NCBI RefSeq assembly: GCF_024055725.1
Contig: NZ_JAMXMX010000009.1
Span: 186,001-250,000, forward strand
Source of the DNA: Actinoallomurus spadix
GTDB lineage: Bacteria > Actinomycetota > Actinomycetes > Streptosporangiales > Streptosporangiaceae
DNA length: 64,000 bases
Direction: 5' to 3'
The notes beneath the pieces are model-generated. The model saw only the letters and a list, made by a program, of their open reading frames with translations, did no database searches and was not told where the DNA came from. Positions 23,117 to 59,855 of the stretch are shown piece after piece. Each line of letters starts with the position of its first letter. The first letter of the stretch is position 1. A program made the translations under genes and the position numbers.

Positions 23117-23130
23117 AGCAAGCGTTTGGT
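23117..23130. promoter_or_regulatory. KstR2-like operator, site 1
   Basis: AGCAAGCGTTTGGT matches the published KstR2 consensus AnCAAGnnCTTGnT with one mismatch. It ends 12 bases before the GTG of the acyl-CoA dehydrogenase, so the transcript may be leaderless. Confidence 0.55.
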
Positions 23131-23142
23131 TATCATCGTTTC

Positions 23143-24147
23143 GTGAGCGACGAACTCGACGACCTGCGGGCGGCCGTCCGCGCGTTCCTGGGCGAAGAGT
23201 GCCCGCCTCCTGCCGTCCGAAGACTCATGGCCGACCCGGCCGCGCACGACGCGGCGCTGTGGCGGCGGCTCTCGGGGGAGCTCGGGCTCACGGGCCTGGC
23301 CGTCCCGGAGGAGCACGGCGGAGCGGGTCGCGGGCTCACCGAACTCGCCGTCGTCTGCGAGGAGCTGGGCCGGGCGCTGACCCCCGTCCCCTATCTCGCC
23401 GCCGCGGTGCTCACCGCGTACGCCGTGCGGGACGGGTGTCTGCTCGCCGGGATCGCCGACGGTTCCGTGATCGGGACCGTCGTCCTGGACGGGGACCTGA
23501 CGGCGGAGGACGACCGGCTGACCGGCACCGCCCCGTACGTCCTCGACGGGCACCTCGCCGAGGTCATCGTCTGCGCGGTCGCCGGCCGGGTGTACGCGGT
23601 GCGTGGCGCGGACGTCGCGCGGACGCCGCACGTGACCCTCGACCAGACGCGGCGGCTGGCGCGCCTGCGGTTCGACGGCACTCCGGCCGAGCGGATCGAC
23701 GGCGACCTGAGCCGGGTACGCGACGTCGCCCTGAGCGCGCTCGCCGCCGAGCAGGCCGGTGGCGCCCGGCGCTGCCTGGAGACGGCCGTCGCGCACGCGC
23801 GGACGCGGGTCCAGTTCGGCCGGCCGATCGGCTCGTTCCAGGCGATCAAGCACAAGCTGGCGGACATGCTCCTGCGCGTCGAGTCCGCGCGGTCCGCGGC
23901 GTACGAGGCGGCGCGGGTCGCCGATCAGGAGCCGGACCGCCTCCCGGTGTACGCCGCGCTCGCCGGGTCGTACTGCGCCGAGGCGTACCTGCACGCGGCG
24001 GGCGAGACGATCCAGATCCTGGGCGGCATCGGCGTCACCTGGGAGCACGACGCCCACCTGCACCTCAAGCGGGCGACCGCGTCCGCCCGGCTCTTCGGCA
24101 CGCCCGAGGCGCACCGCGCCCGGCTCGCCGCCGCGCTGGCGCTGTGA
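23143..24147 (+). CDS. acyl-CoA dehydrogenase (short steroid-type FadE)
   Basis: FAD-dependent dehydrogenase of 334 residues, shorter than the usual 380. It has LGLTGLAVPEEHGGAG at the N-terminus, RTRVQFGRPIGSFQAIKHKL, and the C-terminal ETIQILGGIGVTWEHDAHL. Short FadEs of this kind often form heterotetramers with a second FadE in mycobacterial steroid catabolism. The partner could be the dehydrogenase at 34130, but that is inference. GTG 23143 has no ribosome site; the KstR2-like site lies just upstream. Confidence 0.88.
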   Translation: MSDELDDLRAAVRAFLGEECPPPAVRRLMADPAAHDAALWRRLSGELGLTGLAVPEEHGGAGRGLTELAVVCEELGRALTPVPYLAAAVLTAYAVRDGCLLAGIADGSVIGTVVLDGDLTAEDDRLTGTAPYVLDGHLAEVIVCAVAGRVYAVRGADVARTPHVTLDQTRRLARLRFDGTPAERIDGDLSRVRDVALSALAAEQAGGARRCLETAVAHARTRVQFGRPIGSFQAIKHKLADMLLRVESARSAAYEAARVADQEPDRLPVYAALAGSYCAEAYLHAAGETIQILGGIGVTWEHDAHLHLKRATASARLFGTPEAHRARLAAALAL

Positions 24148-24240
24148 CTACCTGCCGACCCTCCGGTAGACGATCACCAGCACGAGGCAGAGGACGACCA
24201 GGGCGACGATGACGATCACGCCTTTGATCAGGTAGTCCAT
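24148..24240 (-). CDS. 30-residue single-span membrane peptide (putative)
   Basis: Nearly the whole peptide is one hydrophobic helix (GVIVIVALVVLCLVLVIVY) framed by MDYLIK and RRVGR, the positive-inside pattern of small bitopic proteins. ATG 24240 has only a weak ribosome site. It lies downstream of another small membrane protein on the same strand, and both are divergent from the TetR gene. Function unknown. Confidence 0.5.
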   Translation of the reverse strand: MDYLIKGVIVIVALVVLCLVLVIVYRRVGR

Positions 24241-24323
24241 CGCGAGCTCGTGGAGGACCCGGTCTCCGTCTCCGTCCGCGACGGCCCGGGTGCCTCCGGA
24301 CGACAGGACCGGCAGGCCCCGGC

Positions 24324-24654: not shown

Positions 24655-24702
24655 TTTAGCACGACCTTGCTACAAAGAATTTAGCACGGTGGTGCTACAA
24701 AG
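24655..24702. promoter_or_regulatory. two tandem operator copies in the TetR divergent spacer
   Basis: TTTAGCAC-N5-TGCTACAAAG occurs at 24655-24677 and again at 24680-24702. Only the five central bases differ (GACCT, GGTGG), and each copy is itself an inverted repeat (TAGCA/TGCTA). Centres are 25 bp apart, so two repressor dimers could bind with a slight helical offset. The pair overlaps where both divergent promoters must lie. Confidence 0.8.
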
Positions 24703-26626: not shown

Positions 26627-26640
26627 AGCGAGCGCTTGGT
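26627..26640. promoter_or_regulatory. KstR2-like operator, site 2
   Basis: AGCGAGCGCTTGGT has one mismatch to AnCAAGnnCTTGnT. It also lies within a perfect palindrome with arms CCAAGCG and CGCTTGG (26624-26639). It stands 22 bp before the LLM oxidoreductase start. Confidence 0.6.
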
Positions 26641-26662: not shown

Positions 26663-27727
26663 ATGTCCCTACGGGTCAGCGTGGGTTACGAACTCGAGGT
26701 GCGCGGGCGCACCCGCGACGTCGAGCAGCGGGCCTTCCAGAACGTCATCGACCAGGTCGTCCTGGCCGACCGCCTCGGCTACGACACGGCGTGGTTCGTG
26801 GAGCACCACTTCACGCGCGGGTTCTCCCACTCCTCCGCCCCCGACCTCGTCCTGGCGGCCTGCTCCCAGCGGACCGAGCGCATCCACCTCGGCCTGGGCG
26901 TCGTCCTGCTGCCGTTCCAGCACCCGGTGCGCACGGCCGAACGGGTCGCCACCCTCGACGTCCTCAGCGGCGGGCGCGTGGAGTTCGGCACCGGGCGCGG
27001 AGCGTCCCCGCTGGAGTACCAGGCGTTCCAGCGGCCCTTCGAGCGGTCCCGGCGGATCTGGGAGGACACCCTCGAGGCGGTGCTGGCGATCTGGACCGCC
27101 GACGGCGAGCCGGTGACCAGGTCCAACGAGTTCTTCGAGGTGCCGGACGTCGCGGTCTACCCGCGTCCGGCGCAGGAGCCCCACCCCCCGGTCTGGGTCG
27201 CCTCGACCTCGCTGGACGGCTACCTCGCGGCGGCCCGCAAGGGCTACAACCTGCTCGGCATGACCATGCTCAAGGGCCTCGACGACGTCGCCGAGGACAT
27301 CGCCGAGTACAAGAAGTGCCTGGCGAGCAGCGGATTCGACCCGGAGACCCGGCGGATCGCGCTGATGATCCCCTGGCACGTCGCGCAGTCGAAGGACGAG
27401 GCCGTCTCCGCGGCCGCCGACGCCGTCCTCTGGTACATCCGGCGCCAGGTGAACCTCGTCACTCCCCCCGACTACTACGACGCCCGGCACGCCACCCACC
27501 GGGTGCTGGGCCAGCTCGCCGCCGGCCTGCCGCCCGAGGATGCCATGGAGACCCTCCGCGAGCACCACATGGTGGTCGTGGACGACGTCGAGGGCTCCCG
27601 CAAGGCCGTCGAGCGCGTCCAGGCCGCCGGGGCCACCGACCTGATCCTCCAGGCCCAGGTCGGCGGCCTGGCGGGCGAGCACGTGACCGCGTCGATGCGG
27701 CTGTTCATGGACGAGGTGATGGGGTGA
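26663..27727 (+). CDS. LLM-class (luciferase-like) flavin/F420 oxidoreductase
   Basis: A 354-residue TIM-barrel monooxygenase/oxidoreductase. It has DTAWFVEHHF, GLGVVLLPFQHPVRTAERVATLD and the family GGRVEFGTGRGASPLEYQAF segment, then PPVWVASTSL. ATG 26663 has GGAGG at good spacing. FMN versus F420 cannot be decided from sequence. It is the first gene of a three-gene operon with a PaaK-like fragment and a FadD3-like ligase, headed by a KstR2-like site, so it probably acts on a CoA-linked or ring-cleaved acid intermediate. Confidence 0.88.
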   Translation: MSLRVSVGYELEVRGRTRDVEQRAFQNVIDQVVLADRLGYDTAWFVEHHFTRGFSHSSAPDLVLAACSQRTERIHLGLGVVLLPFQHPVRTAERVATLDVLSGGRVEFGTGRGASPLEYQAFQRPFERSRRIWEDTLEAVLAIWTADGEPVTRSNEFFEVPDVAVYPRPAQEPHPPVWVASTSLDGYLAAARKGYNLLGMTMLKGLDDVAEDIAEYKKCLASSGFDPETRRIALMIPWHVAQSKDEAVSAAADAVLWYIRRQVNLVTPPDYYDARHATHRVLGQLAAGLPPEDAMETLREHHMVVVDDVEGSRKAVERVQAAGATDLILQAQVGGLAGEHVTASMRLFMDEVMG

Positions 27728-28800
27728 CCTGGCTCTCCCGCGACGCCCTCCCGGCCGGCCGTGACGCGGCGGGGCTGCTCCTCGTCTCCCCCGAGGCCGA
27801 CGTGGTCCTGCCGCTGACCGCCGAGGACCGCGCGGCCGCGCTGGACCTCGCGGCGACGACGCTGCGCGCCGCCGGCGTCGGCCCCGGCGACCGGGTCGTG
27901 GTCGCGCTGAACAACGACGGCGAGGCGACCGGGACCCTGATCGCGCAGGCGTGCGCCGAGGTCGCCCGGGCCACCGCCGCGCCCGGGCCGCGCGGCCGTC
28001 TCCGCCTGCACCACGCCCTGGAGGCGGTACGGGCGACCACGCTGCTCGCGACGCCCGCGGGCGCGATGGACCTGCTCGCTCGCCTGCATCTGGAGTTCCT
28101 CCTCGACCCGCTGGACCTCGGTCTGCGCCACATCCTGCTCACCGGGGAGATCCCCTCGCCGGGCACGTACGCGCAACTGGCGTCGGAGTTCGGGGCCGAG
28201 GTCGGCGAGCTGTACGCCGATCCGTTCTTCGGCCTGCCGGTGGCCCACCGGACCGCGCGCGACGCGGCGTACACCCCGGCCCGCGAGGGGCTACTGGGCG
28301 TGGCGCCGATCGGCAAGGACGTGCTGCTCGAACCGCCGTACGAGGCCGGGGCGGCGGAGATCGTGATCACGCCCGCCTGGCACTCCACGCTGGCCGGCGC
28401 GACGCTGCGCACCGGGCAGGTCGTGCGCCTGACCGGGGGCGCGGGTGTCCCCCCGCCGGGCCATACGGTGGGCGAGCACATCCTCGTGCGGGGACGGTGG
28501 CTCTCGATCCCGCGGGTGGCGGCGGCCCTGGCCCGGATCGACGGCATCGCCCGCTGGGACCTGCGCGTGTCCCGCGCGGGCACCCTCGACGCCGCGGCGC
28601 TGCACGTCACCTTCAACCGCACGACGCTCGTGAAGAACCCGATGTGGCGGTCGCGCATCCACCAGGCCCTCGTCGCGATCACCCCGATCGCCGTCGAGGT
28701 CGTCGTCGAGGACGACGTCGCGGAGCAGGCCCGGCCCGGAACCGTGACCGATCTGCGCGGACACCACCTGGGCCGGGACAGGGCGGCCGTCTCGGAGTGA
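27724..28800 (+). CDS. truncated PaaK-like adenylate-forming protein
   Basis: A 358-residue protein whose middle and C-terminus resemble phenylacetate-CoA ligases: HILLTGEIPSPGTYAQLASE, GELYADPFFGLPVAH, a TGQVVRL segment and RGRWLSIPRVAAALARI. The N-terminal P-loop region of an active ligase (SSGTTGxPK type) is absent; in its place is only about 90 residues without that motif. GTG 27724 overlaps the LLM stop (GTGA). It may bind acyl-adenylates or act as a non-catalytic partner of the ligase downstream; I cannot assign a reaction. Confidence 0.6.
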   Translation: MTWLSRDALPAGRDAAGLLLVSPEADVVLPLTAEDRAAALDLAATTLRAAGVGPGDRVVVALNNDGEATGTLIAQACAEVARATAAPGPRGRLRLHHALEAVRATTLLATPAGAMDLLARLHLEFLLDPLDLGLRHILLTGEIPSPGTYAQLASEFGAEVGELYADPFFGLPVAHRTARDAAYTPAREGLLGVAPIGKDVLLEPPYEAGAAEIVITPAWHSTLAGATLRTGQVVRLTGGAGVPPPGHTVGEHILVRGRWLSIPRVAAALARIDGIARWDLRVSRAGTLDAAALHVTFNRTTLVKNPMWRSRIHQALVAITPIAVEVVVEDDVAEQARPGTVTDLRGHHLGRDRAAVSE

Positions 28801-28841: not shown

Positions 28842-30428
28842 ATGGAACCGGTACCGGACTGGGAGACCATCCCGCGGATGCTGCGCGACCAGGCGGCACG
28901 CCATCCCGGTGACGTCGTCGTCGTGGACGGCGCCGCGACGCTGACGCTGCGCGCGCTCCGGGAGGAGGCCGCGCGGGTGGCCCGCGGGCTGGCCGCCCTC
29001 GGCGTCGGGCCCGGCGACCGCGTCGCCGTGTGGGCGCCGAACTCCGCCTCCTGGGTGGTCATCGCCTGCGGCGTCTGGGACGCCGGGGCGATCGTCACGC
29101 CGTTGTCGACCCGGTTCCGCGGGATCGAGGCCGCCGCCCTGCTGCGGCGGACCGGCGCGCGGGTCCTGTTCATCGACGAGGGATTCCTCGGGTTCTCCTA
29201 CGCCGGCGCGCTGAGAGAGGTCTGCGGCGGGCCGGTCGGCCAGCGGCCGTACGGCGACCTGCCGGAGTTGCGGCACGTCGTCACGCTCCCCGGGACCGGC
29301 GCGCCCCCGCCCGCCCTCGCGTACGAGGACCTGCTCGCGGGCGGCGAGAGGGTCACGGACGCCGAGGAGCGCGCGCTGGCGGTCGGCCCGGACGACCTCG
29401 CCGAGATCATGGCCACGTCCGGCACGACGGGCACGCCGAAGGGCGTCATGCTGCACCACGCGCAACTGCTGCGCGGCTACTGGGACTGGGCGTCGATCGT
29501 CACGCTGCGCGCGGGCGACCGGTATCCGATCATCGCGCCGTTCTCGCACGGGTTCGGGATCAACGCCGGGCTGCTGGCCTGCCTGCTGAGGCGCGCGACG
29601 ATGACGCCGATCTCGGTGTTCGCGCCGGACCCGCTGCTGGACTTGATCGAACGGGACCGGATCAGCGTCCTGGCGGGGCCGCCGACACTGTTCCACCGGA
29701 TCCTGAAGGAGGCCGACGGCCGGGACGTGTCGTCCCTGCGGGTGGCGATCTGCGGGGCGACGGCGGTGCCTCCGGAGCTCATCCGGCGGCTGGTCGAACG
29801 GGTCGGCCTGGACCGGGTGATCAACGCATACGGCCTGATGGAGGGCACCGTCGTGTCGATGACACGCGCCGGGGACCCGGTCGAGGTGATCGCCGCCACC
29901 ACCGGGCGTCCCGTGCCGGGCGTGACGGTCCGGATCGTCGACGACGACGGGAAGGACCTGCCGGCCGGGGAGCGCGGAGAGATCCTCGTCGGCGGGTACG
30001 GCGTGATGCGCGGCTACTGGGACGACCCCGCGCGGACGGCCGAGGCCGTCGACGCCGACGGGTGGCTGCACACCGGGGACGTCGGCGCGCTCGACGCGCA
30101 AGGAAACCTCGCGGTCGTCGACCGGAAGAAGGACATGTTCATCGTCGGGGGGTTCAACGCGTACCCGGCGGAGATCGAGGCGCTGCTCCTGCACCATCCC
30201 GCCGTCGCCCAGGCGGCGGTGGTCGCGGTGCCCGACGAGACGCTGGGCGAGGTCGGATGGGCCTTCGTGGTCCCCTCGGCCCCGGTCGAACCGGCCGAGA
30301 TCGTCGCCTGGGCGCGCGAGCACCTGTCCAACTACAAGGTTCCCCGGCGCGTCACGATCGTCGACGCCCTGCCCGCGAACGCCAACGGCAAGGTCGACAA
30401 GCGGGCGCTCCGCGCCCGGATCCGCTAG
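28842..30428 (+). CDS. acyl-CoA synthetase, FadD3-like
   Basis: ATP-dependent CoA ligase of 528 residues. The AMP motif is MATSGTTGTPKGVMLHH, followed by AYGLMEGT, GWLHTGDVGALD, the hinge DRKKDMFIVGGFNAYPAEIE, and the catalytic lysine in ANGKVDK. From memory the sequence closely follows mycobacterial FadD3, the ligase for the steroid-derived acid HIP. ATG 28842 has GGAGG nine bases upstream. Third gene of the operon behind KstR2-like site 2. A general fatty-acid ligase role is the alternative. Confidence 0.85.
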   Translation: MEPVPDWETIPRMLRDQAARHPGDVVVVDGAATLTLRALREEAARVARGLAALGVGPGDRVAVWAPNSASWVVIACGVWDAGAIVTPLSTRFRGIEAAALLRRTGARVLFIDEGFLGFSYAGALREVCGGPVGQRPYGDLPELRHVVTLPGTGAPPPALAYEDLLAGGERVTDAEERALAVGPDDLAEIMATSGTTGTPKGVMLHHAQLLRGYWDWASIVTLRAGDRYPIIAPFSHGFGINAGLLACLLRRATMTPISVFAPDPLLDLIERDRISVLAGPPTLFHRILKEADGRDVSSLRVAICGATAVPPELIRRLVERVGLDRVINAYGLMEGTVVSMTRAGDPVEVIAATTGRPVPGVTVRIVDDDGKDLPAGERGEILVGGYGVMRGYWDDPARTAEAVDADGWLHTGDVGALDAQGNLAVVDRKKDMFIVGGFNAYPAEIEALLLHHPAVAQAAVVAVPDETLGEVGWAFVVPSAPVEPAEIVAWAREHLSNYKVPRRVTIVDALPANANGKVDKRALRARIR

Positions 30429-31627: not shown

Positions 31628-32041
31628 TCAGCGGGGGCGCCAGCGGACGAGCGTCAGATCGTCGTCGACGTCCGTGAAGACCGCCCGGACCGGCATGCCC
31701 GGCGTCACGTCGGCGGGGTCCGCGCCGGTCAGGTCGCCGTACATGAACAGGTCGTCGGCCTCGTCGAGCCGCACGTGCAGCACGGCGTAGGGCACCTCGT
31801 CCGCGAAGGCGCGCAGGAATACCTGGTGGTTCACGACCCAGCTCGCGACGCGGCCGGTCCCGCGCACCGGCGCCCAGGCGCTCCGCCGGGACCGGCAGCG
31901 GCCGCAGATCGCCCGGGGCGGGAAGCGGAGCGTTCCGCAGTCGCCGCACTCCTGGACCAGCAGCTCGTGCCGGCGGACCGCCTCCCACCACGGCGCGGAG
32001 TCGCGATCGGGCTGCGGCCTCGGCCGCCCGCCGAGACTCAT
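31628..32041 (-). CDS. DUF35 OB-fold zinc-ribbon protein (thiolase partner)
   Basis: A 137-residue protein. The N-terminal zinc ribbon has C32, C35, C46 and C49 (ECGDCGTLRFPPRAICGRC), then an OB fold (GTGRVASWVVNHQVFL, VPYAVLHVRLDE). DUF35 proteins dock on thiolase-like partners; ChsH2-Ltp2 of steroid side-chain cleavage is the known example. ATG 32041 overlaps the stop of the thiolase-like gene (ATGA), so the two are co-translated. Confidence 0.88.
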   Translation of the reverse strand: MSLGGRPRPQPDRDSAPWWEAVRRHELLVQECGDCGTLRFPPRAICGRCRSRRSAWAPVRGTGRVASWVVNHQVFLRAFADEVPYAVLHVRLDEADDLFMYGDLTGADPADVTPGMPVRAVFTDVDDDLTLVRWRPR

Positions 32042-33195
32042 CGATCGGCCCGGAGGATCAGCGCGGAGGTGCCGGCCAGGACGTAGCCGGGCTGGGCCGT
32101 GGACAACGCCACCTCGGCGCCTCTCACCTGGCGGTCGCCGGCGGTGCCGCGCAGCTGCGCGACGGCCTCGGCGACGTGGTTGATGCCGTGCACGTAGCCC
32201 TCCGAGAGGAAGCCGCCGTGGGTGTTGACCGGCAGCGGGCCGCCCAGCCGGGTCGCGCCGGAGGCGGCGTACGGCCCGCCCTCCCCCTTGGCGCAGAACC
32301 CGTAGTCCTCCAGCTGGACGAGCACCGAGTAGGTGAAGCAGTCGTACAGCTCGGCGACGTCGACGTCCTCCGGGCCGGCGCCCGCCATGGCGTACAGCCG
32401 CGGGGCGATCCGCGCGGCCTCCGAGACGGTGAAGTCGCCGCCCTGGCCGGAGAGGAGACTGTCGCCGCCGCCCCAGACGGCGCCGGAGATCAGGACCGGC
32501 GGGGCGGCGAGGTCTCGGGCGCGCTCGGCGGAGGTGACGACGACCGCGCAGGCCCCGTCCGTCTCCAGGCAGCAGTCGAGCAGGCGCAGGGGCTCGGCGA
32601 TCCACCGCGAGGCCAGGTAGTCCTCCATGGTGATCGGGTCGCGTTTGAGCGCCCGCGGGTTCCCGGCGGCGTGGGCCCGCTGGGTGACGGCGATGGCGCC
32701 GAGCTGCTCGTGCGTCGTCCCGTACTTGATCATGTGCGCGCGGGTGAACATCGCGAACTGCTGCGGCGGCGCGAAGTGGCCGTACGGCGCCTGGTACTGC
32801 GCGTCGAACACCGGCGCGACGCCGCGCCCGGTGCCGCCCATGCGGAACTCCGAGCGGGCGTTGATCGCGCGGTAGCAGACGACGGTGCGGGCGACGCCGG
32901 CGGCGACCGCCATGGCGGCCTGCCCGATCACCGCGTGCGAGACGCTGCCCCCGCCGAACTGGTCGAGGTACCAGTGCACCTCCGGGACGCCGAGCGCCGG
33001 GGCCACCACCCAGGGCGGCGTCGAGTCGCCGACGCGGTGGGTGGCCAGCGCGTCGACGTCGTCGACGCCGAGCCCCGCGTCGTCCAGGGCGGCGAGGATC
33101 GCGTCGATGGCGAGGGTGAGCGTGGAGACGCCGGAGTCCTTGCTGAACGGCGTGTACCCGACTCCGGCGATCGCCGCCCGGTCCCGCAGTCCCAT
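32038..33195 (-). CDS. thiolase-like / lipid-transfer-type protein (possible retro-aldolase)
   Basis: A 385-residue thiolase-fold protein. The position of the usual nucleophile Cys reads GGGSVSHAV near residue 84, so classical thiolysis is unlikely. LYDCFTYSVLVQLEDYG and LSEGYVHGINHVAEAV contain tyrosines that could match those catalytic in the Ltp2 aldolase (alignment needed). Pairing with DUF35 supports an aldolase role on a CoA-linked side chain or ring fragment. ATG 33195 has GAAGG six bases upstream. KstR2-like site 4 lies 17 bp ahead. Confidence 0.82.
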   Translation of the reverse strand: MGLRDRAAIAGVGYTPFSKDSGVSTLTLAIDAILAALDDAGLGVDDVDALATHRVGDSTPPWVVAPALGVPEVHWYLDQFGGGSVSHAVIGQAAMAVAAGVARTVVCYRAINARSEFRMGGTGRGVAPVFDAQYQAPYGHFAPPQQFAMFTRAHMIKYGTTHEQLGAIAVTQRAHAAGNPRALKRDPITMEDYLASRWIAEPLRLLDCCLETDGACAVVVTSAERARDLAAPPVLISGAVWGGGDSLLSGQGGDFTVSEAARIAPRLYAMAGAGPEDVDVAELYDCFTYSVLVQLEDYGFCAKGEGGPYAASGATRLGGPLPVNTHGGFLSEGYVHGINHVAEAVAQLRGTAGDRQVRGAEVALSTAQPGYVLAGTSALILRADR

Positions 33196-33211: not shown

Positions 33212-33225
33212 ACCAAGCGCTCGGT
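33212..33225. promoter_or_regulatory. KstR2-like operator, site 4
   Basis: ACCAAGCGCTCGGT has one mismatch to AnCAAGnnCTTGnT. It lies 17 bp upstream of the thiolase-like gene. Between this site and site 3 (33226-33482) I see only non-coding DNA for two divergent promoters. Confidence 0.55.
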
Positions 33226-33482: not shown

Positions 33483-33496
33483 AGCAAGCGCTTGGC
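33483..33496. promoter_or_regulatory. KstR2-like operator, site 3
   Basis: AGCAAGCGCTTGGC matches AnCAAGnnCTTGnT except for the last base, and an extra CCAAG half lies directly upstream. It stands 19 bp before the flavin-reductase start. Confidence 0.65.
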
Positions 33497-33515: not shown

Positions 33516-34130
33516 ATGCCCGACGGCGCGACCGCCGCCACGCCGATCCCCCGGGGTCCGGCCGCGCGATCCTCCGGCCAGAACACGCCACGGCGCGCAC
33601 CCGGCCCGCCCGATGGAGCGGCCCGCCCGGCCACGGCCGAGCAGGTCGCCGACATCGACAAGATGCGTTTCCGCAACATCCTCGGCCGGTTCGCCACCGG
33701 CGTGGTCGCCATCACCGCGATCGACCCCGAGAGCGGCCGGCCCACCGGCCTGGCCGCCAACTCGTTCACCTCCGTGTCGCTGGACCCCGCCCTCGTCTCC
33801 TTCTGCGTCGCCCACACCAGCTCCACCTGGCCCAGGCTCCGCGGCGCCGGCCGGCACTGCGTCAACATCCTCTCCGCGCCCCAGCGCGAGGTCTGCCTGC
33901 AGCTGGCCACGAAGGGCGCGGACAAGTTCGCCGGGCTCGAATGGACCGAGTCCCCCGGCGGCAGCCCCGTCATCGACGGCGCGCTCGCCTGGCTGGAGTG
34001 CTCCGTCGAGGCGGAGTACGTCGCCGGCGACCACGTCATCGTCGTCGCCCAGGTGCACCACCTCGACAAGCACCACGACGGCGATCCGCTCGTCTTCTAC
34101 AAGGGCTCCTACGGCCGCTTCGACGGCTGA
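33516..34130 (+). CDS. HsaB-like flavin reductase
   Basis: A 204-residue FMN-binding split-barrel protein. It has FRNILGRFATGVVAITAI, LAANSFTSVSLDPALVSFCV, GRHCVNILSAPQREVCLQLA and DKFAGLEW, the pattern of HsaB and related reductases that feed reduced flavin to two-component monooxygenases. A 45-residue Pro/Ala-rich extension precedes the fold. ATG 33516 has AAAGGA seven bases upstream. No oxygenase component was found adjacent; the LLM protein at 26663 is one possible client. Confidence 0.85.
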   Translation: MPDGATAATPIPRGPAARSSGQNTPRRAPGPPDGAARPATAEQVADIDKMRFRNILGRFATGVVAITAIDPESGRPTGLAANSFTSVSLDPALVSFCVAHTSSTWPRLRGAGRHCVNILSAPQREVCLQLATKGADKFAGLEWTESPGGSPVIDGALAWLECSVEAEYVAGDHVIVVAQVHHLDKHHDGDPLVFYKGSYGRFDG

Positions 34131-35281
34131 TGGACTCCGCCTTCCGCGCCGAGGTGCGGGCCTGGCTCGAGGCGAATCTCACCGGCGAGTTCGCCGGCGC
34201 CCGCGGGCTGGGCGGACCCGGCCGCGAACACGAGGGCTTCGCCCTGCGCCGTGCCTGGGAGCGGAGGCTCGGCGAGGCGGGCTGGACCTGCCTCGGCTGG
34301 CCGAAGGCGTACGGCGGACGCGACGCGACACTCGAGCAGCAGGTCGTCTTCCACGAGGAGTACGCCCGCGCGAACGCCCCCCACCGCGTCGGCGACATCG
34401 GCGAGGGCCTGATCGGGCCCACGATCATCGACTTCGGCACCGAGGAGCAGCGGCGCCGGTTCCTGCCGCCGATCCGGTACGGCGACGAGCTCTGGTGCCA
34501 GGGCTACTCCGAACCCGAGGCGGGCTCCGACCTGGCCAACGTGCAGACGCGCGCGGAACCGCGCGGCGGCGAGTGGGTGATCACCGGGCAGAAGGTCTGG
34601 ACCTCCCTCGCGCACCTGGCCGACTGGTGCTTCGTCCTCTGTCGCACGGAGGCGGGTTCGAAGCGCCATCACGGCCTGTCGTACCTGCTCGTGCCGATGC
34701 GCCAGCCGGGGGTCGAGGTGCGCCCCATCGTCCAGCTCACCGGGACCGGCGAGTTCAACGAGGTGTTCTTCGACGGCGCCCGCACGGACGCGGCCTGCGT
34801 CCTCGGCGCCCCCGGCGACGGCTGGCGCGTCGCCCTCGCCACCCTCGGCTACGAGCGCGGCGCCTCGACGCTCGGCCGGCAGATCGGCTTCCGGCGGGAG
34901 TTCGAGCAGGTGGTCGCGGCGGCCCGGCGTACCGGCGCGGCCGCCGACCCCGTGCTGCGGGACCGGCTCGTCCAGTCGTGGATCGAGCTGGAGATCATGC
35001 GTCTCAACGCGCTGCGCACCCTGTCGTCCCTCGCGGCCGGCGAGCCGGGCCCGGAGGCGTCGATCACCAAGCTGTACTGGTCGGAGTGGCACCGGCGGCT
35101 CGGCGAGCTGGCCATGGCCGCCCTCGGCGACGAGGCCCTGATCGCGGAGGCCGGACCGTACGAGCTGTCGGACCTGCAGCGGCTCTACCTCTTCAGCCGC
35201 GCTGACACGATCTACGCCGGGTCCAGCGAGATCCAGCGGAACATCATCGCCGAGCGCACCCTCGGCCTGCCCCGCGCCTGA
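34130..35281 (+). CDS. fadE30: acyl-CoA dehydrogenase, FadE30-like
   Basis: A 383-residue FAD enzyme. It has AGWTCLGWPKAYGG, ELWCQGYSEPEAGSDLAN, GQKVWTSLAHLADWCFVLCR and the C-terminal RADTIYAGSSEIQRNIIAER. From memory nearly every block parallels mycobacterial FadE30, which acts on HIP-CoA derivatives in cholesterol ring-C/D breakdown. ATG 34130 overlaps the flavin-reductase stop by one base (TGATG), so it shares the transcript headed by KstR2-like site 3. A terminator follows at once. Confidence 0.88.
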   Translation: MDSAFRAEVRAWLEANLTGEFAGARGLGGPGREHEGFALRRAWERRLGEAGWTCLGWPKAYGGRDATLEQQVVFHEEYARANAPHRVGDIGEGLIGPTIIDFGTEEQRRRFLPPIRYGDELWCQGYSEPEAGSDLANVQTRAEPRGGEWVITGQKVWTSLAHLADWCFVLCRTEAGSKRHHGLSYLLVPMRQPGVEVRPIVQLTGTGEFNEVFFDGARTDAACVLGAPGDGWRVALATLGYERGASTLGRQIGFRREFEQVVAAARRTGAAADPVLRDRLVQSWIELEIMRLNALRTLSSLAAGEPGPEASITKLYWSEWHRRLGELAMAALGDEALIAEAGPYELSDLQRLYLFSRADTIYAGSSEIQRNIIAERTLGLPRA

Positions 35282-47536: not shown

Positions 47537-47556
47537 GGGACCTCCGGCCGGGGCGC

Positions 47557-52412: not shown

Positions 52413-52561
52413 CGAAGGGAAGCCGGGAGGCACCGTCGGTGTCAATAGCCCGAAACATATTCGTTACGCGGACGTCACGTCGTCCTTCCCCGCGGCGACA
52501 CGGCGAGTCCGCCGCACGCCGCCTGCCGCCTCGGGCGGCGGACCCGTGGCAGCCTCGGAGA

Positions 52562-52978
52562 ATGAGGCTCCCGGAGCAGATCGCGCGCACCCGTTTCGCG
52601 GCCGCACGCGCCGTCCGCATGGCGACCGTCGATGAGACGGGGCGTCCGCATCTGGTCGTGATGACGTTCGCCGTGGACGGCGATCGGATCTACTCCGCCA
52701 TCGACGCGAAACCGAAGCACACCCGGGACCTCAAACGGCTGCGCAACATCCAGGCGGACCCCCGCGTCACGGTGCTGGCCGACCACTACGAGGACGAGTG
52801 GTCCCGTCTCTGGTGGGTGCGCGCCGACGCCACCGCCCAGATCATCGAGGACCCGGAGGCCATGGCAGGGCCGATCGGTCTCCTGCGCGAGCGGTACCGG
52901 CAGTACCGCGCCCATCCCCCGGACGGCCCGGTCATCGCCCTGACCGTCCACAAGTGGACCGGCTGGTCCGCCTCCTGA
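52562..52978 (+). CDS. PPOX-class (F420-type) split-barrel oxidoreductase
   Basis: A 138-residue protein with RFAAARAVRMATVDETGRPH, VVMTFAVDGDRIYSAIDAKP and ADPRVTVLADHYEDEWSRLWW then VRADATAQII. The size and these blocks match the actinobacterial family that binds F420 rather than FMN. Reaction unknown. ATG 52562 is divergent from cebE. Confidence 0.82.
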   Translation: MRLPEQIARTRFAAARAVRMATVDETGRPHLVVMTFAVDGDRIYSAIDAKPKHTRDLKRLRNIQADPRVTVLADHYEDEWSRLWWVRADATAQIIEDPEAMAGPIGLLRERYRQYRAHPPDGPVIALTVHKWTGWSAS

Positions 52979-52992
52979 CGCCGGGCGGGGCG

Positions 52993-53589
52993 TCAGGAGG
53001 CGATGAGCGCCCGGACCTGGCCGGCCGAGCGGAAGACCTCCGCGCGCATGCCGAGTTCACGGGCGGCGACGACGTTGACCTCGGTGTCGTCGATGAACAG
53101 GCAGTCGGCCGGAGCGACGCCGAGTTGCTCGGCCGCGATCTCGAAGGCGCGATGGTCGGGCTTGGCCACACCGATCGCGCAGGAGTACGTCCGCGCGTCG
53201 AAGTGCGCGAGCCAGTCCCCGTGCCGTTCCTCGAAGACCGGGACCAGGTTGGCGATGATGTTCGACAGCAGGCCGAGCCGGCGGCCCTCTCCCGCCAGTT
53301 CCCCGATGAGGGACACCATGGCCGGGTCGGCGTTGGTCCAGCTCGCCAGGTCGGCCCCGGTCAGAGCCTCGATCGTCGCGGGCGCGAACCGAACACCGAG
53401 CCGGTCGGCGACCGCCGTCCAGTACTCCGCGCTCGACTGTCCCGCGTCGTACGGTTTACGGAGCGCCCAATAGGCGTCCCAGAGCGCGTCGGAAGCAACA
53501 CCGGCGATCTCCTCGATCCGGCGTTTGGCCTCGGGCGTCTGCTGCAGGGCGATGACGCCGAACAGGTCGAACACGATCGCACGCGGCAT
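52993..53589 (-). CDS. HAD-superfamily subfamily IA hydrolase
   Basis: A 198-residue phosphatase-like protein. Motif I is AIVFDLFGVI; motif II lies in LGLLSNI; Lys and motif IV are in GVAKPDHRAFEIAAEQLG and CLFIDDTEVN. The second Asp of the usual DxD motif is Phe, which reduces confidence in phosphatase activity. Substrate unknown. ATG 53589 is divergent from the kstR2-like gene. Confidence 0.85.
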   Translation of the reverse strand: MPRAIVFDLFGVIALQQTPEAKRRIEEIAGVASDALWDAYWALRKPYDAGQSSAEYWTAVADRLGVRFAPATIEALTGADLASWTNADPAMVSLIGELAGEGRRLGLLSNIIANLVPVFEERHGDWLAHFDARTYSCAIGVAKPDHRAFEIAAEQLGVAPADCLFIDDTEVNVVAARELGMRAEVFRSAGQVRALIAS

Positions 53590-53712: not shown

Positions 53713-53726
53713 AGCAAGCGGTTGGG
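53713..53726. promoter_or_regulatory. KstR2-like operator, site 5 (autoregulatory)
   Basis: AGCAAGCGGTTGGG has two mismatches to AnCAAGnnCTTGnT. It lies 21 bp before the repressor's start codon and is the weakest of the six by base match. Confidence 0.5.
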
Positions 53727-53747: not shown

Positions 53748-54419
53748 GTGACGACCACGCGCAAGGACAACGAACGGCCGCGGGCCGACGCCCGCACCGG
53801 CACCTCGGGGGGCGCTCGCCGTCGCGCGAAGGGCTCGTCGACGCTCGCCTCCGAGCGCCGCGAGCACCTCGTGAGGCTCGCCGCCGAGCTGTTCGCCGAG
53901 AAGGGCTACCAGGCGACGACCGTCCGCAACATCGCGGACGAGGCCGGGATCCTGTCCGGGAGCCTCTACCACCACTTCGACTCCAAGGAGTCGATCGTGG
54001 ATGAGATCCTCACGTCCTTCTTCGACGAGCTGGCGACGGCGAACCACGCGGCCTTGGCCAAGGGCGGCGACCCGCGGGAGGTGCTGTCCGAGCTCGTGCG
54101 CATCTGCTTCGGCACGCTGGTCCCGCACCGCGCCGCCATCATGGTGCTGCAGAACGACTGGAACTACCTCAAGCAGTTCGACCGGTTCGACTACCTCGCC
54201 AAGGCCGAGGCCGAGACCGAGCGCCTGTGGGTCGGTCAGATCGAGCGCGGCCAGGAGACCGGACTGTTCCGTGAGGACATCGACCCGAAGCTCACCTACC
54301 GCATGATCCGCGACACCATCTGGGTGACGGTGCGGTGGTTCCAGCCCGAGGGCCGGCTCGACGCCGCGGGCCTCGCCGACCACTACATCAAGGTCCTCTT
54401 CGACGGCATCTCCCGGTAA
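53748..54419 (+). CDS. kstR2: TetR-family repressor, KstR2-like
   Basis: A 223-residue regulator. The helix-turn-helix is ATTVRNIADEAGILSGSLYHHF followed by DSKESIVDEIL, and near the C-terminus RMIRDTIWVTVRWFQPEG. Both blocks are almost the same as in mycobacterial KstR2, as I recall it; KstR2 responds to HIP-CoA. A 35-residue basic N-terminal extension (RKDNERPRADARTG) is extra. GTG 53748 follows GGGG with almost no spacing, so a leaderless or weak start is possible. A KstR2-like operator lies just upstream. Confidence 0.8.
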   Translation: MTTTRKDNERPRADARTGTSGGARRRAKGSSTLASERREHLVRLAAELFAEKGYQATTVRNIADEAGILSGSLYHHFDSKESIVDEILTSFFDELATANHAALAKGGDPREVLSELVRICFGTLVPHRAAIMVLQNDWNYLKQFDRFDYLAKAEAETERLWVGQIERGQETGLFREDIDPKLTYRMIRDTIWVTVRWFQPEGRLDAAGLADHYIKVLFDGISR

Positions 54420-54553: not shown

Positions 54554-55123
54554 TCAGATCTGTTCTGGGCTCTCGTTCACCCTCCTGAGCTCCTCCGGAA
54601 GGCGTTCGAGCAGGCCTCGCAGGTCGTCGGCGTGCTCCTCCTCCTGCGCGAGGATCGTCTCGAACACCCGCTTCGTCGTGGGGTCCTTGTCCCCGATCCA
54701 CTGGATGATCTCGGTATAGGACATGATCGCGACGCGCTCGGCGACGAGATCCTCCTTGATCATCTCCACCAGGTCGAGACTCCCGGCGTACTCGGCGTGC
54801 GCGCGGGTCGCGAGCGTGTCTGGGTTGAAGTCGGGCTCACCGCCGAGCTGGACGATGCGCTCGGCCAGCATGTCGGCGTGGTTCTGCTCCTCCTGGGCGT
54901 GCTCCAGGAACTCCCCGGCGACCGACTCGGCGTGGATGCCGGTGGCGGTGAAGTAGTGCCGCTTGTACCGCAGGACGCAGACGATCTCCGTGGCCAGCGC
55001 CTCGTTGCAGACCTGGATGACGCGCTCCAGATCGGCGCCGTACGCGTCGGTCACCGGCCCCTTGTCGATCTCGGTCTTGGCCCGCTCGCGGAGCGTCTTG
55101 ATGTCGGTCAGGAATTCGGCCAT
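54554..55123 (-). CDS. ferritin-like / bacterioferritin-type protein
   Basis: A 189-residue four-helix protein. It has CNEALATEIVCVLRYKRHYF, FLEHAQEEQNHADMLAERIV and AQEEEHADDLRGLLERL, which supply the Glu/His pairs of a di-iron site. Iron storage or detoxification is likely. ATG 55123 begins the only gene of this transcript; a terminator follows. Confidence 0.88.
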   Translation of the reverse strand: MAEFLTDIKTLRERAKTEIDKGPVTDAYGADLERVIQVCNEALATEIVCVLRYKRHYFTATGIHAESVAGEFLEHAQEEQNHADMLAERIVQLGGEPDFNPDTLATRAHAEYAGSLDLVEMIKEDLVAERVAIMSYTEIIQWIGDKDPTTKRVFETILAQEEEHADDLRGLLERLPEELRRVNESPEQI

Positions 55124-55197
55124 GGCGTTGGTACCTCCCGCCCCTGACCTACCTCAGCGCGCACGGTCTACACACCGATCGGCCATTTCCCCGGCGC

Positions 55198-57345
55198 TCA
55201 CCGGCCCGACTCGACGCGCACCGGTACGGCCGGCGCCGCGGCGGGCGGCTCGGCGGCGGGCAGCAGGCGGGCGAGCCACCCCGGCAGCCACCAGTTCACC
55301 GCGCCGAGCAGCTCCATGACGGCGGGAACGAGCACCATGCGCACCACCGTCGCGTCGACCAGCACGGCCACTCCCAGGCCCAGGCCCATCTGCTTGACCG
55401 CGATGTCCGCACCGAGCAGCACCGACAGGAACACGCACACCATGATCGCCGCGGCGGCGGTGATCACCCGGGCGGTACGGGCCAGGCCGCGGGTGACGGC
55501 GAGCCGCGTCGGCGTCCCCGCGTCGTACTCCTCCCGGACTCGGGAGATGAGGAACACCTCGTAATCCATCGACAGCCCGAACAGGATCGGGAACATGAAC
55601 AGCGGCACCCAGGCGGTCACCGGCATCCCGGTCGGGAAGCCCAGCGCGTGCCCCAGCCATCCCCACTGCACGACCGCGGTGAGCACGCCGTACGCCGCCC
55701 CGATGGACAGCAGGTTCATCAGCGCGGCCTTGAGCGCGATGGCCACCGAGCGGACCAGCACCAGCAGCAGGACGAGGGACAGCCCGACGACCACCGCGAT
55801 CAGCCACGGCAGCCGCGAGATGACCGCGTCGGCGAAGTCGATCGCCACGGCGTTCGGCCCGCCGACGTAGACCCGCGGGCCGCCGGCGCGGTGCCGCTCG
55901 GCCATGGCGTCCCGCAGCCGGTGCACGAGCCTCGGCGTCGCGGCGTCCTGCAGGCCCGTCCTCGGATACGCGACGAACATGGCGGCCGTGCCGTCCGCGC
56001 CGGCCCGCACGGGAGTCACCGAGGCCACCCCCGCCGTACGGCGGACGGCCTCGGCTACCGGCCGTACGTCACCGGGCGACCGGACCACCACGACCAGCGG
56101 CGCGTCGTACCCGGCTCCGAAGCCGTCGGCGAGGATCCGGTGCGAGGCGTACGCGCTCGTGTCGTGCGGCTGGGTGCTGGAGTCGGTGAAGCTCAGCCGC
56201 ATCGACAGCGCCGGCACGGCCAGGACGAGCAGTGCGGCCGCCGAGACCGCCAGGGCGACGACCGGACGCCGCTGGATCACTCCGGCCCACCGCTCGGACA
56301 GAGGCCGGCGCGCGTGCCGCCGGGTCACGAACGGAAGCCCGAAGCGGTCGATGTTCCGGCCGGTGAAGCCGAGCAGCGCGGGCAGCAGGGTCACGGCGGT
56401 GACCATCGTCATCAGCACCGTCAGCGACGCGGCGACGGCGACCGCGTTCAGCAGCCGCTGGCCCATCACGAACAGCCCCAGCAGTGCGACGACCACGGTC
56501 GAGCCGGCGAACAGCACCGACCGCCCCGCCGTGGCGATCGCGACGACGGTCGCGTGCTCGGGATCCGCGCCCTCCTCGCCCAGGGTCTCGCGGTAACGGG
56601 TCACGATGAACAACGCATAGTCGACACCGACGCCGAGCCCGATGAGACCGGCGACGATCGGGCTGAAGCCCGGCGCGGGCAATACGTGGCCGAGCAGGGC
56701 GATGCCGGCCAGACCCGTGCCGATGCCGAAGACCGCCGTCACGATCGGCAGGCCCATGGCCAGCAGCGACCCGAACGCGATGAGCAGCACGATCACGGCC
56801 GCGAGCAGCCCGATGCCCTCGGTCGGCCCGCCACCCGGGGTCTCCGCCTTGACCACGGCCCCGCCGCCGAGCGCGAGGGTGAGGCCGTCTCCGGACGCTC
56901 TCCGCACATCGGAGATCATCGCGGTGACGTCCTTCACCGGCATGTCGTCCTCGTTCACGTCGAGCTGGACCGCCGCGAACGCCGTCCGGTGGTCCGGGGA
57001 CACCTGGCCGGGCACCTGGTACGGCGAGCTCACGGACGCGACGTGCGAGGCGCGGGCCAGGTCACCGAGCACCCTCTCCACCCGGGGCCGCACGGCCTCG
57101 ACGCCGCCGTCCGCGCGGACGGCGAGGGTGAGCGTGTCGCCGCTCCGGCCCGGGAAGTGCTTCTCGATCAGGTCGTGCGCCTGGGAGGACTCGGCCTTGC
57201 CGCCGGAGAAGTCGTTGTCGGCCGGCGCGGCGAAGCCGAAGCCGACCGCGATGACGATCGCGGCGCCGACCGTCCAGGCCGCCAGGACCAGGCGCCTACG
57301 GCGGTAACAGAAACGGGCCAGCCGTGCGAGCGGTCCGTCGTACAT
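55198..57345 (-). CDS. MMPL-family RND transporter
   Basis: A 715-residue export protein with 12 spans in two halves. The first half has FCYRRRRLVLAAWTVGAAIV and the large outside loop (SSQAHDLIEKHFPG and following). GLGVGVDYALFIVTRYRE and its counterpart LFGLSMDYEVFLISRVREEY carry the membrane Asp residues that relay protons. MMPL proteins export lipids or drugs. A 22-bp palindrome precedes it and a histidine kinase lies upstream, so it may be induced by that kinase. Confidence 0.9.
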   Translation of the reverse strand: MYDGPLARLARFCYRRRRLVLAAWTVGAAIVIAVGFGFAAPADNDFSGGKAESSQAHDLIEKHFPGRSGDTLTLAVRADGGVEAVRPRVERVLGDLARASHVASVSSPYQVPGQVSPDHRTAFAAVQLDVNEDDMPVKDVTAMISDVRRASGDGLTLALGGGAVVKAETPGGGPTEGIGLLAAVIVLLIAFGSLLAMGLPIVTAVFGIGTGLAGIALLGHVLPAPGFSPIVAGLIGLGVGVDYALFIVTRYRETLGEEGADPEHATVVAIATAGRSVLFAGSTVVVALLGLFVMGQRLLNAVAVAASLTVLMTMVTAVTLLPALLGFTGRNIDRFGLPFVTRRHARRPLSERWAGVIQRRPVVALAVSAAALLVLAVPALSMRLSFTDSSTQPHDTSAYASHRILADGFGAGYDAPLVVVVRSPGDVRPVAEAVRRTAGVASVTPVRAGADGTAAMFVAYPRTGLQDAATPRLVHRLRDAMAERHRAGGPRVYVGGPNAVAIDFADAVISRLPWLIAVVVGLSLVLLLVLVRSVAIALKAALMNLLSIGAAYGVLTAVVQWGWLGHALGFPTGMPVTAWVPLFMFPILFGLSMDYEVFLISRVREEYDAGTPTRLAVTRGLARTARVITAAAAIMVCVFLSVLLGADIAVKQMGLGLGVAVLVDATVVRMVLVPAVMELLGAVNWWLPGWLARLLPAAEPPAAAPAVPVRVESGR

Positions 57346-57437
57346 GGGATCACCTCGTGGGACGTGTCAATGGCGTCCCGAGGTTCGCGGGCGGTCGTGC
57401 TCACGCGCGTCCGTCCCGCGATGACACTTCCCGGCCC

Positions 57438-57459
57438 CCGTACTCCCCCGGGAGTACGG
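57438..57459. promoter_or_regulatory. perfect palindrome upstream of the MMPL gene
   Basis: Arms CCGTACTCCC and GGGAGTACGG flank two bases (CC). It lies 93 bp before the MMPL start and 36 bp past the kinase stop. It could be a response-regulator operator for the exporter, or a kinase terminator. Confidence 0.6.
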
Positions 57460-57494
57460 ACGGGTCGTCGCCCGTACGGAGCGGCGAGCGGCGC

Positions 57495-58655
57495 TCACCC
57501 GCGCCGCGGCGGATCCTCCGGTACACCCGAGACCGGCAGCCGCGCCGACACCGTGAACCCACCGGCGCCGCCCCGCCCCGCGGCGAACGAACCCCCGACC
57601 GCCTCGGCGCGCTCCCGCATCCCCGTCAGCCCGTTACCGGGCCGCCCGTTCCCGGGCGGGCCGGCACCGTCGTCGGCGACCTCGATGCGGAGCTCACCGG
57701 CGGCGTACGTCAGCGACACCCGCGCGGTCACCACCGGCCCGGCGTGCCGCAGCACGTTGGTCAGCGCCTCCTGCACGATCCGGTACGCGACGTGGTCCAC
57801 ATCCGCGGCGAGCCGTCCCGACCCCTCGCGGACGAGGTCGACCCGCAGCCCCGCCGTACGCAGCTCGTCCAGCAGGGCGGGCATCCGGTCGAGACCGTGC
57901 GCGGGCGCGGACGGGCCGCCGTCCCGCAGCATCCCGAGTGTCGCGCGCATCTCGGCCAGCGCCTGCCTGCCCGTCCTGCGGATCGCCGTCAGCGCCGCCC
58001 GCGACCCGTCGTCGCCGTCTCCGAGCAGGTGCAGGGCGCTGCCCGCCTGCACCGTGATCGTCGCCATGCTGTGCGCGACCGTGTCGTGCAGTTCGCGGGC
58101 GATCCGCAGCCGCTCCTCCGCGACCCGCCGGGCGGCCTCGCGTTCGCGGCTCTCCTCGGCCTGCCGGAGGCGCTCGCGCGTCTCGGCGGCCAGCTCGCGG
58201 CGGCTGCGGGCGTACTCGCCGAACAGGATGATCCCCGCCAGCAGCGTCACCTGCGGCAGCGAGTCGCTGAGCGTCTGCAGCAGCGCCTGGTCCTTCAGAC
58301 CGAGAAGGACGATATACCCGGCGATCAGGTAGAAGAGGGTGACCCCGGTCGCCCAGCGCCACTTCCCCGCCAGGGACGCGAAGTACAGCTGGACCGACAG
58401 CGCGAACGCAGGGGAGAAGCCCGGATACCCCGTCGAGTAGTAGACGAACAGCAGCGCGGCGGAGGCCAGCAGGGCCCCGAGCGGCCGGCGGCGGTGCAAC
58501 GGGATCGGCAACGCGATCAGCGCGGCCATGAGGTACGCCCCGAGGTCCACCGGCCGCGCCCGGGGCTCGGTCGCCACCGACACGGTGACGCACAGCCCGA
58601 CCACCACGCCGGTCGTCAGCAGCAGATCGAGCACCACGGCGCGGGACGGACGCAT
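57495..58655 (-). CDS. NarL/DesK-type sensor histidine kinase
   Basis: A 386-residue kinase. Five to six membrane helices fill residues 10-150. The phosphoacceptor box is LRIARELHDTVAHSMATITV, and the ATPase domain has QEALTNVLRHAG, a DDGAGPPGNG loop and GLTGMRERAEAVGG. No response regulator gene is adjacent, although this class nearly always comes with one. The upstream neighbour is a thiolase-like gene and the downstream one the MMPL exporter. Confidence 0.9.
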   Translation of the reverse strand: MRPSRAVVLDLLLTTGVVVGLCVTVSVATEPRARPVDLGAYLMAALIALPIPLHRRRPLGALLASAALLFVYYSTGYPGFSPAFALSVQLYFASLAGKWRWATGVTLFYLIAGYIVLLGLKDQALLQTLSDSLPQVTLLAGIILFGEYARSRRELAAETRERLRQAEESREREAARRVAEERLRIARELHDTVAHSMATITVQAGSALHLLGDGDDGSRAALTAIRRTGRQALAEMRATLGMLRDGGPSAPAHGLDRMPALLDELRTAGLRVDLVREGSGRLAADVDHVAYRIVQEALTNVLRHAGPVVTARVSLTYAAGELRIEVADDGAGPPGNGRPGNGLTGMRERAEAVGGSFAAGRGGAGGFTVSARLPVSGVPEDPPRRG

Positions 58656-58719
58656 GCGCCAGAACCTACGCCGCGCCGCCCCTCCCCCGCAGTCGGGCTG
58701 CCCCTACCCCCGCCGGAGT

Positions 58720-59829
58720 TCACCGGCCGGTCCCCGGGCGGACGAGGATCGCGGCACTGCCGTAGGAGCCGCCGAAGCCGGTGCAGAGCGCGACCTCGGC
58801 GCCGGGGACCTGGTTCACCCCGTCGCCCCGCAGCTGCCGGACCGCCTCGGCGACGTTGTTGAGGCCGTGCACGTAGCCCTCCGACAGCAGCCCGCCGTGC
58901 GGGTTGACGGTGGCCAGGCCGTCGTGGAGGGTCGCGGCGAGGTCGGCGCGGGCGCACAGCCCGAAGTCCTCCAGCTGGCGCGGGACCAGCCAGGAGTAGG
59001 CGTCGTACAGCAGGGCGACGTCGACGTCGGCCGGCGTCATCCCCGCGGCGGCGAACAGCGGGCCGGCCACGTGGGAGGAGAAGATCCTCGTCACGTCGTC
59101 GGTCCGGTCCATGGCCGAGGCGCCCGGACCGCCGCCCCGTACGACGGCGTGGACGCGTGGCGCGGCCGGCGCGCGGTCGGCGGACGTGATGACGAGCGCG
59201 CAGGCGCCGTCCGTCTCCTGGCAGCAGTCGGCGCGGCGCAGGGGCGAGGCCACCATCGGGCTCGCCCAGTAGTCCTCCACCTCCCGGCGCAGCGCCCGGG
59301 GATTGGCCACGGCGTGGGTGCGCGAACCGCGCACCACCGCGCACAGGTGCTCCTCGGTGAGGCCGGTGTGGTGCAGGTAACGCTGGGCGGCGAGGGCGAA
59401 CTGCTGCACCGGGCCGGCCAGGCCGTACGGGTGGGTGAACTGCTCCTCGACGCCCTCCCCCAGCTTCAGGGAGAGGGTGTTCATCCGCCGCCCGGAACGC
59501 CCGTTCAGGGCGCGGTAGACCAGGACCGTACGGGCCAGGCCGGCGTCGATGAGCATGGCGGCGTCACCGAGGATCGAGGCGCACTGGGTGCCTCCGCCGT
59601 AGATCTCGTTGTGCCAGCCGAGTTCGATCCGCAGCTCCCGGGCGACGTGGATCACCGGGGCGGAGTCGCCGAGGTGGTAGCCGAGGATCGCGTCGGGCCG
59701 CTGCCCGGCCTCGTCGATCGCGTGGCGGGCGGCCTCGACGGCGAGCTGCAGTTCGGTTCGGCCGGAGTGGCGGGACAGGTCCGTCATCCCCACCCCGGCG
59801 ACCGCCGCCTTACCGGAGAAGCCCTGCAT
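58720..59829 (-). CDS. second thiolase-like / lipid-transfer-type protein
   Basis: A 369-residue paralogue of the protein at 32038. It shares CCQETDGACALVITSADRA and LSEGYVHGLNNVAEAV, but keeps a Cys at the nucleophile position (GGTQCAS, Cys83). No DUF35 gene is next to it, so it may share the one at 31628. KstR2-like site 6 lies 12 bp upstream of ATG 59829. A CoA-thiolysis or aldolase step is plausible. Confidence 0.82.
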   Translation of the reverse strand: MQGFSGKAAVAGVGMTDLSRHSGRTELQLAVEAARHAIDEAGQRPDAILGYHLGDSAPVIHVARELRIELGWHNEIYGGGTQCASILGDAAMLIDAGLARTVLVYRALNGRSGRRMNTLSLKLGEGVEEQFTHPYGLAGPVQQFALAAQRYLHHTGLTEEHLCAVVRGSRTHAVANPRALRREVEDYWASPMVASPLRRADCCQETDGACALVITSADRAPAAPRVHAVVRGGGPGASAMDRTDDVTRIFSSHVAGPLFAAAGMTPADVDVALLYDAYSWLVPRQLEDFGLCARADLAATLHDGLATVNPHGGLLSEGYVHGLNNVAEAVRQLRGDGVNQVPGAEVALCTGFGGSYGSAAILVRPGTGR

Positions 59830-59841
59830 CCGTCCAGTCTA

Positions 59842-59855
59842 GCCAAGCGCTTGTT
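59842..59855. promoter_or_regulatory. KstR2-like operator, site 6
   Basis: GCCAAGCGCTTGTT matches AnCAAGnnCTTGnT with one mismatch (first base) and includes the perfect 10-bp core CAAGCGCTTG. It sits 12 bp before the second thiolase-like gene. Confidence 0.65.

Follow-up and report, generated by a model that had tools for sequence, protein, structure and literature searches.

A stretch of 64,000 nucleotides from the genome of Actinoallomurus spadix (the window; G000:C71:186001-250000, in a genome of 8.02 Mb and 71 contigs) holds, over some 37 kb, a TetR repressor gene, several catabolic genes and six short palindromes, and raises the question of whether these form a regulon of the KstR2 type and whether that regulon serves the degradation of HIP, the steroid ring C/D acid. 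The preliminary description of the window had proposed one dispersed KstR2-type regulon with six operators, acting on a HIP-like or other polycyclic acid. The answer reached here, to which we give a probability of roughly 0.7, is that dispersed HIP-linked operons are repressed by the KstR2-like TetR of the window and that the core of HIP degradation lies under a sister repressor elsewhere in the genome, so that one catabolic regulon would be divided between two proteins.

A scan of the window found all six sites where they had been placed, with a central CG common to all. Against the loose motif AnCAAGnnCTTGnT, the sites at 23117, 26627, 33212, 33483 and 59842 have one mismatch each and that at 53713 has two; the upper limit of the zero to two mismatches first given holds, and the lower limit was slightly generous, as no site is perfect. 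The distances to likely start codons, claimed as 12-25 base pairs (bp), were measured as 13-23 bp. On the plus strand, the candidate operator AGCAAGCGTTTGGT (23117..23130) stands 13 bp before the start of the gene at 23143, AGCGAGCGCTTGGT (26627..26640) 20-23 bp and AGCAAGCGCTTGGC (33483..33496) 20 bp before their genes, and AGCAAGCGGTTGGG (53713..53726), a putative autoregulatory operator, 22 bp before the TetR start. The remaining two serve minus-strand genes and are given as read toward them: ACCGAGCGCTTGGT (33212..33225), 17 bp before an Ltp2-like gene, and AACAAGCGCTTGGC (59842..59855), 13 bp before its gene. Promoters were compared in four relatives (G003, G051, G059 and G091), and in G048, G051 and G059 for the gene at 58720. 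The sites at 26627 and 33483 have counterparts in all four relatives fetched, as does the site at 33212 in all four testable ones; for 59842, all three relatives compared have a site no more than about 350 bp from the aligned start, and an operator is also found upstream of the TetR gene of relatives. It was this comparison that defined the regulon, which a survey of 80 TetR neighbourhoods had left undefined because the targets are dispersed.

It is very improbable that the motif is an artefact of chance or codon usage. The loose pattern is weak alone, since 23 matches with up to two mismatches were counted in the window (5.16 expected) and 17 of them fall in other places, and 11 of the 13 tight-form matches followed outside the C71 cluster (14 stretches) lie inside a called open reading frame (ORF), as an artefact would predict; the sites on C33, C55, C4 and C69 were unconvincing on follow-up. 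Against this stand the conserved position of the operators before most of the target orthologues compared and their clustering in the genome. The whole-genome scan suggested with the preliminary description, made here with two mismatches allowed to the tight form AGCAAGCGCTTGGT, returned 45 rows representing 44 positions. Six of these fall in the 37-kb span, where the density of the other 38 predicts 0.17 (Poisson P about 3e-8, an optimistic value, the consensus having been derived from the same six sites). An independent test examined ten fixed positions upstream of the TetR gene in 78 of 80 named relatives (L085 and L132 lack the helix pattern): an operator with at most one position wrong was found in 55 of the 78, compared with 18 of 1450 control windows, which contradicts an artefact, and the remaining relatives have two (17) or three to four (six) positions wrong.

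The regulon was rightly described as dispersed, and its limits were set too narrowly, a seventh site (C71:250017) having been missed 17 bp beyond the edge of the window, before a luciferase-like monooxygenase gene and a ligase gene; weaker tight-form sites reach as far as C71:287711. The genes tested between the targets, at 35904-53589 and 54554-58655, have no tight-form site at up to two mismatches and look unrelated; transporters, a kinase, a LacI regulator, an MMPL protein and a histidine kinase are among the intervening genes. The possibility that the true motif is an 18-bp palindrome, CCAAGCnnnnGCTTGG, was weighed and rejected. Exact copies of it stand at 26627, 33483 and C71:250014, but the sites at 33212 and 59842 depart from it, and relatives have the 14-bp palindrome without a flaw, for example ACCAAGCGCTTGGT. 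The 14-bp reading was therefore kept; an additional half-site may be what the longer one marks.

The repressor gene (53748..54419, plus strand) encodes a protein with domains PF17932 and PF00440 and the helix ILSGSLYHHF, 97% identical to a TetR of Actinoallomurus soli. Its TetR fold and KstR2-like sequence are as had been claimed: the best matches in the PDB are 2ibd (175 bits), which we take to be the KstR2 of Rhodococcus jostii, and the KstR2 structure 4w1u (158 bits), the next match outside KstR2 scoring 86 bits. By sequence alone, the operator AnCAAGnnCTTGnT and predicted autoregulation are also those of KstR2, the autoregulatory site having two mismatches. This protein is not the closest KstR2 of the genome: a second TetR encoded on contig C10 (C10:97775-98377; helix ILGGSLYYHF), 45% identical to the first, is nearer the solved KstR2 proteins (220 and 205 bits vs 175 and 158). 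An outgroup-free tree of 59 rows separates the C10 type, together with the two solved KstR2s, from the window type, with 100/100 on the dividing branch; in an earlier tree that included three very distant rows as outgroups the branching order stayed open, and both trees omit L051 (its locus is short) and L226-L228 (which do not match the helix pattern). A plain KstR2 orthologue was rejected on the strength of the outgroup-free tree, by which the window TetR is a member of a sister clade. The motif RDTxW, through which KstR2 presumably contacts HIP-coenzyme A (HIP-CoA), is kept in both repressors. It occupies KstR2 positions 162-166 in the numbering of PMC13176608.

Two observations concern TetR genes more generally. 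Behind the TetR gene, 42 of the 80 named loci (L070-L149) carry an ORF of one conserved family, about 600 bp downstream of the TetR start region, and in L120 and L135 this ORF overlaps the TetR stop. Within the window, AGCACGACCTTGCT (24658-24671) has one mismatch to AnCAAGnnCTTGnT, lacks the central CG and lies about 36 bp before a BetI-like TetR gene at 24708; as a candidate regulator the product of that gene was set aside, its solved relatives excluding KstR2 and its gene having no tight-form site.

Around the C10 repressor gene lie genes read as fadA6, short-chain dehydrogenases, an acyl-CoA dehydrogenase pair, ipdC, ipdB, ipdA and echA20, names that rest on family matches and on how the genes are ordered in the KstR2 cluster as printed (PMC3068626, PMC5380842). 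The operators there are ACCAAACAGTTGTT and ACCAAACGTTTGTT, with the operator word CTAnCAAnnnnTTGnTAG, which at up to one mismatch occurs at two places in the genome, both on C10, and nowhere in the window. The proposal that a HIP pathway lies behind the window operators thus has to be divided: in the source genome ipdABC, echA20 and fadA6 are located on C10 under a different operator, next to the nearer relative of KstR2, and what stands is a link to HIP, seen in the 12 genomes with ipdA near a window-type TetR and in the distribution of a monooxygenase gene described below.

Across 150 genomes of the family, in which an ipdA match was accepted at E 1e-40 and taken as near a repressor when within 40 kb, operator type tracks repressor type. 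The window-type helix ILSGSLYHHF is present in 29 of 29 loci and in the solved KstR2s; the C10-type helix [IM]L[GA]GSLYYHF is found in 23 of 23 loci and in 11 of a further 12. An exact C10 operator is present in 15 of these 23 and 11 of these 12 C10-type loci and in none of the 29 window-type loci. A window-type TetR is encoded in 94 genomes and an ipdA match in 71. Twelve genomes, all of which gave just one KstR2-like match at the threshold applied, have ipdA near the window-type TetR. In another 35 the gene is close to a second KstR2-like TetR, which is of the C10 type in 34 (including the source genome) and of a third kind in G067, and 34 of these 35 genomes also carry the window type. The promoters of echA20 or ipdA follow the same division. 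Among single-repressor relatives five of six have a CAAG-type operator there (AGCAAGCGTTAGGT in G003, G059, G027 and G050; AGCAAGCGTTAGTT in G048), and in the dual-repressor genomes G091 and G115 the promoter carries the C10-type AACAAATGTTTGGT, the C10 type being found in the source genome too. A single region of about 55-70 kb contains both the window set and ipdABC-echA20-fadA6 in G003 and G059.

The identities given to the genes behind the window sites were upheld by domain and family searches. The site at 23117 precedes a small acyl-CoA dehydrogenase gene (23143..24147, plus strand; Pfam acyl-CoA dehydrogenase) whose product is the best match in the genome to IpdE2 (NF050027, 239 bits, cut-off 450). 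Behind 26627 are the genes for a luciferase-like monooxygenase, LLM1 (26663..27727, plus; PF00296), a short AMP-binding-like protein (27724..28800, plus; PF00501 at 27.4 bits, below the cut-off; start codon uncertain) and a FadD3-family acyl-CoA ligase (28842..30428, plus, start inferred; AMP-binding domain), for which the FadD3 model NF005801 is the best of 110 families (604 bits, cut-off 657). The short protein has no C-terminal domain, and G003, G051, G059 and G091 all retain it at this place between LLM1 and the ligase. On the minus strand, 33212 precedes the gene for an Ltp2-like thiolase-fold protein (32038..33195; PF22691; NF005892 403 bits, cut-off 469), with the lipid-transfer protein 6ok1 as best PDB match (305 bits), and that for a DUF35/ChsH2-like protein (31628..32041; PF01796, PF12172). 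The site at 33483 precedes an HsaB-like flavin reductase gene (33516..34130, plus; PF01613; NF045630 HsaB 181 bits, cut-off 230) and a large acyl-CoA dehydrogenase gene (34130..35281, plus; PF00441, PF02770, PF02771; best PDB match 6wy9 Tcur3483, 188 bits), the product of the latter being likely the partner of a small one. A second Ltp2-like protein (58720..59829, minus; PF22691; NF005892 305 bits, cut-off 469) is encoded behind 59842. At another locus of the genome (L039, G000:C9:5629-10090) two long ORFs of 733 and 745 amino acids resemble fused pairs, each one matching a small IpdE2-like as well as a large acyl-CoA dehydrogenase.

Taken together, these data are consistent with a model in which the TetR encoded at 53748 would bind, as a dimer, to 14-bp palindromes of the form CAAG-CG-CTTG a short way upstream of its targets and block its own gene and dispersed HIP-linked steroid catabolic operons. 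The proposed target set comprises the FadD3-family ligase, IpdE-like dehydrogenases, the Ltp2/DUF35 pair, the flavin reductase and luciferase-like monooxygenases, which may act as Baeyer-Villiger enzymes by analogy of class with one that does so on progesterone (PMC12239570). Release would follow the binding of a pathway CoA thioester, for which HIP-CoA or a closely related compound is the probable candidate. The ring-opening core (ipdABC, echA20, fadA6) would answer to the C10 sister repressor, with its changed recognition helix and changed operator, the two repressors reading different DNA words. We also consider it rather probable that paired changes in protein and DNA have moved part of the catabolic regulon between the sister repressors: where a C10-type KstR2 is present, the changed helix would be matched by a new operator at the echA20-ipdABC promoter, and the window-type repressor would keep the printed KstR2 word and the remaining operons.

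A number of observations weigh against this model of a divided regulon. Binding, repression, effector and substrate are all predictions from DNA and protein comparison, and the NCBIfam scores of the window enzymes, including those of the ligase and the small dehydrogenase to their best models, fall below the curated cut-offs. The site at 23117 has a counterpart at the tight threshold in one relative of four (in G003; not in G051, G059 or G091), and no operator was found before ipdA in G051. In 24 of the 71 ipdA genomes the gene lies near neither repressor, and an ipdA match at E 1e-40 is missing from 38 of the 94 genomes that encode a window-type TetR, so that the repressor may have another or a vestigial role there. 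A third kind of KstR2-like TetR, about 44% identical to both types, is encoded 1.4 kb from ipdA in L239 (G067) and L243 (G016, one copy). Moreover, an exact CAAG-type site is also present in four C10-type loci (L206, L208, L233 and L235, in G022, G144, G125 and G104), all of which have the C10 operator, and insulation between the two repressors may be incomplete. Such sites, together with the CAA and TTG arms common to both operators, would be expected if the C10-type repressor also bound the window sites, making one combined regulon with two interchangeable repressors; this is unlikely, given that helix and operator change together and that the window is devoid of the C10 word at up to one mismatch.

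The last opposing observation concerns LLM1, which is missing from 36 of the 71 ipdA genomes, leaving room for a separate side branch. The same repressor and operators, with a different effector, would then serve some other steroid or polycyclic acid, attacked by luciferase-like monooxygenases (perhaps of Baeyer-Villiger type) and the Ltp2/DUF35 aldolase and joining the HIP route later. This possibility, which we hold to be somewhat improbable, gains from the presence on C10 of its own acyl-CoA dehydrogenase pair, from the absence of the Ltp2-like gene from the KstR2 regulon list as printed in the available text, and from the oxidation of progesterone by a luciferase-like monooxygenase in Caenibius (PMC12239570). 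It is opposed by the distribution of LLM1 itself: its orthologues occur in 35 of the 150 genomes, all of which have ipdA and a window-type TetR, and in 28 of the 35 LLM1 is on the contig of the TetR, 10-58 kb away. Also against it, a FadD3-like ligase was not found in the C10 stretch 66000-118000 (the remaining genome was not searched for such ligases), and G003, G051 and G059 hold both gene sets in one region with one operator type (in G051 the promoter was not found).

A further tie to steroid catabolism, under the divided regulon as proposed, comes from contig C21, where a tight site (L008, G000:C21:92059) lies 41 bp before a gene whose product has CYP125 as its best PDB match (8vxi, 529 bits) and 1 bp from TAGAACGTGTTTCA. 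The latter fits TnnAACnnGTTnnA, which we take to be the KstR motif, and the adjoining sites suggest dual control of this CYP125-like P450 gene. Thermomonospora belongs to the same order as the source organism. Growth of Thermomonospora on cholate has been reported (PMC4810484). Literature searches on KstR2 in Nonomuraea, on steroid degradation in Streptosporangiales and on cholesterol and KstR in Actinomadura and Nonomuraea found no paper, with subscription papers mostly outside the search and novelty unproven; for Actinoallomurus and steroids, none of the matches listed dealt, by title, with steroid catabolism. If the proposal is right, KstR2-type control extends to the Streptosporangiales, and monooxygenase and aldolase genes become tied to HIP-linked catabolism. 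It would also be an example from nature of one pathway shared out between paralogous repressors, in which two helix residues and the operator arms change together, and dozens of genomes would offer a ready repressor-operator specificity code.

Among known systems, the luciferase-like monooxygenase of the pdc genes of Caenibius tardaugens (PMC12239570) acts in steroid catabolism and is thought to need a flavin reductase, a likeness to LLM1 of class only, drawn without sequence comparison. Rhodococcus equi, with second copies of ipdAB and fadA6 (PMC5380842), resembles the source genome in having duplication within a HIP gene set; there it is enzyme genes that are duplicated, and the available part of that report does not mention a divided repressor system. 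Also among the closest is the KstR2 system of Mycobacterium and Rhodococcus (PMC3068626, PMC5380842), for which HIP-CoA has been named as the effector in Actinobacteria (PMC5380842). The window system resembles it in the TetR type of its repressor, the predicted autoregulation and the 14-bp AnCAAGnnCTTGnT operators near start codons, which agree in type with the printed KstR2 operator (the printed kstR2-promoter probe contains GAGCAAGCGCTTGGT), and it may resemble it too in having FadD3 and IpdE-type dehydrogenases among its targets. The C10-type KstR2 of the same genome shares with the window repressor a HIP-linked cluster and a palindromic operator, and differs in its helix and in the operator word. 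Finally, whereas the regulon in Mycobacterium and Rhodococcus forms, as printed, one cluster with three operators (PMC3068626, PMC5380842), that of A. spadix has at least seven dispersed sites, adds luciferase-like monooxygenase, flavin reductase and Ltp2/DUF35 genes, and leaves the HIP core elsewhere, probably under the sister repressor.

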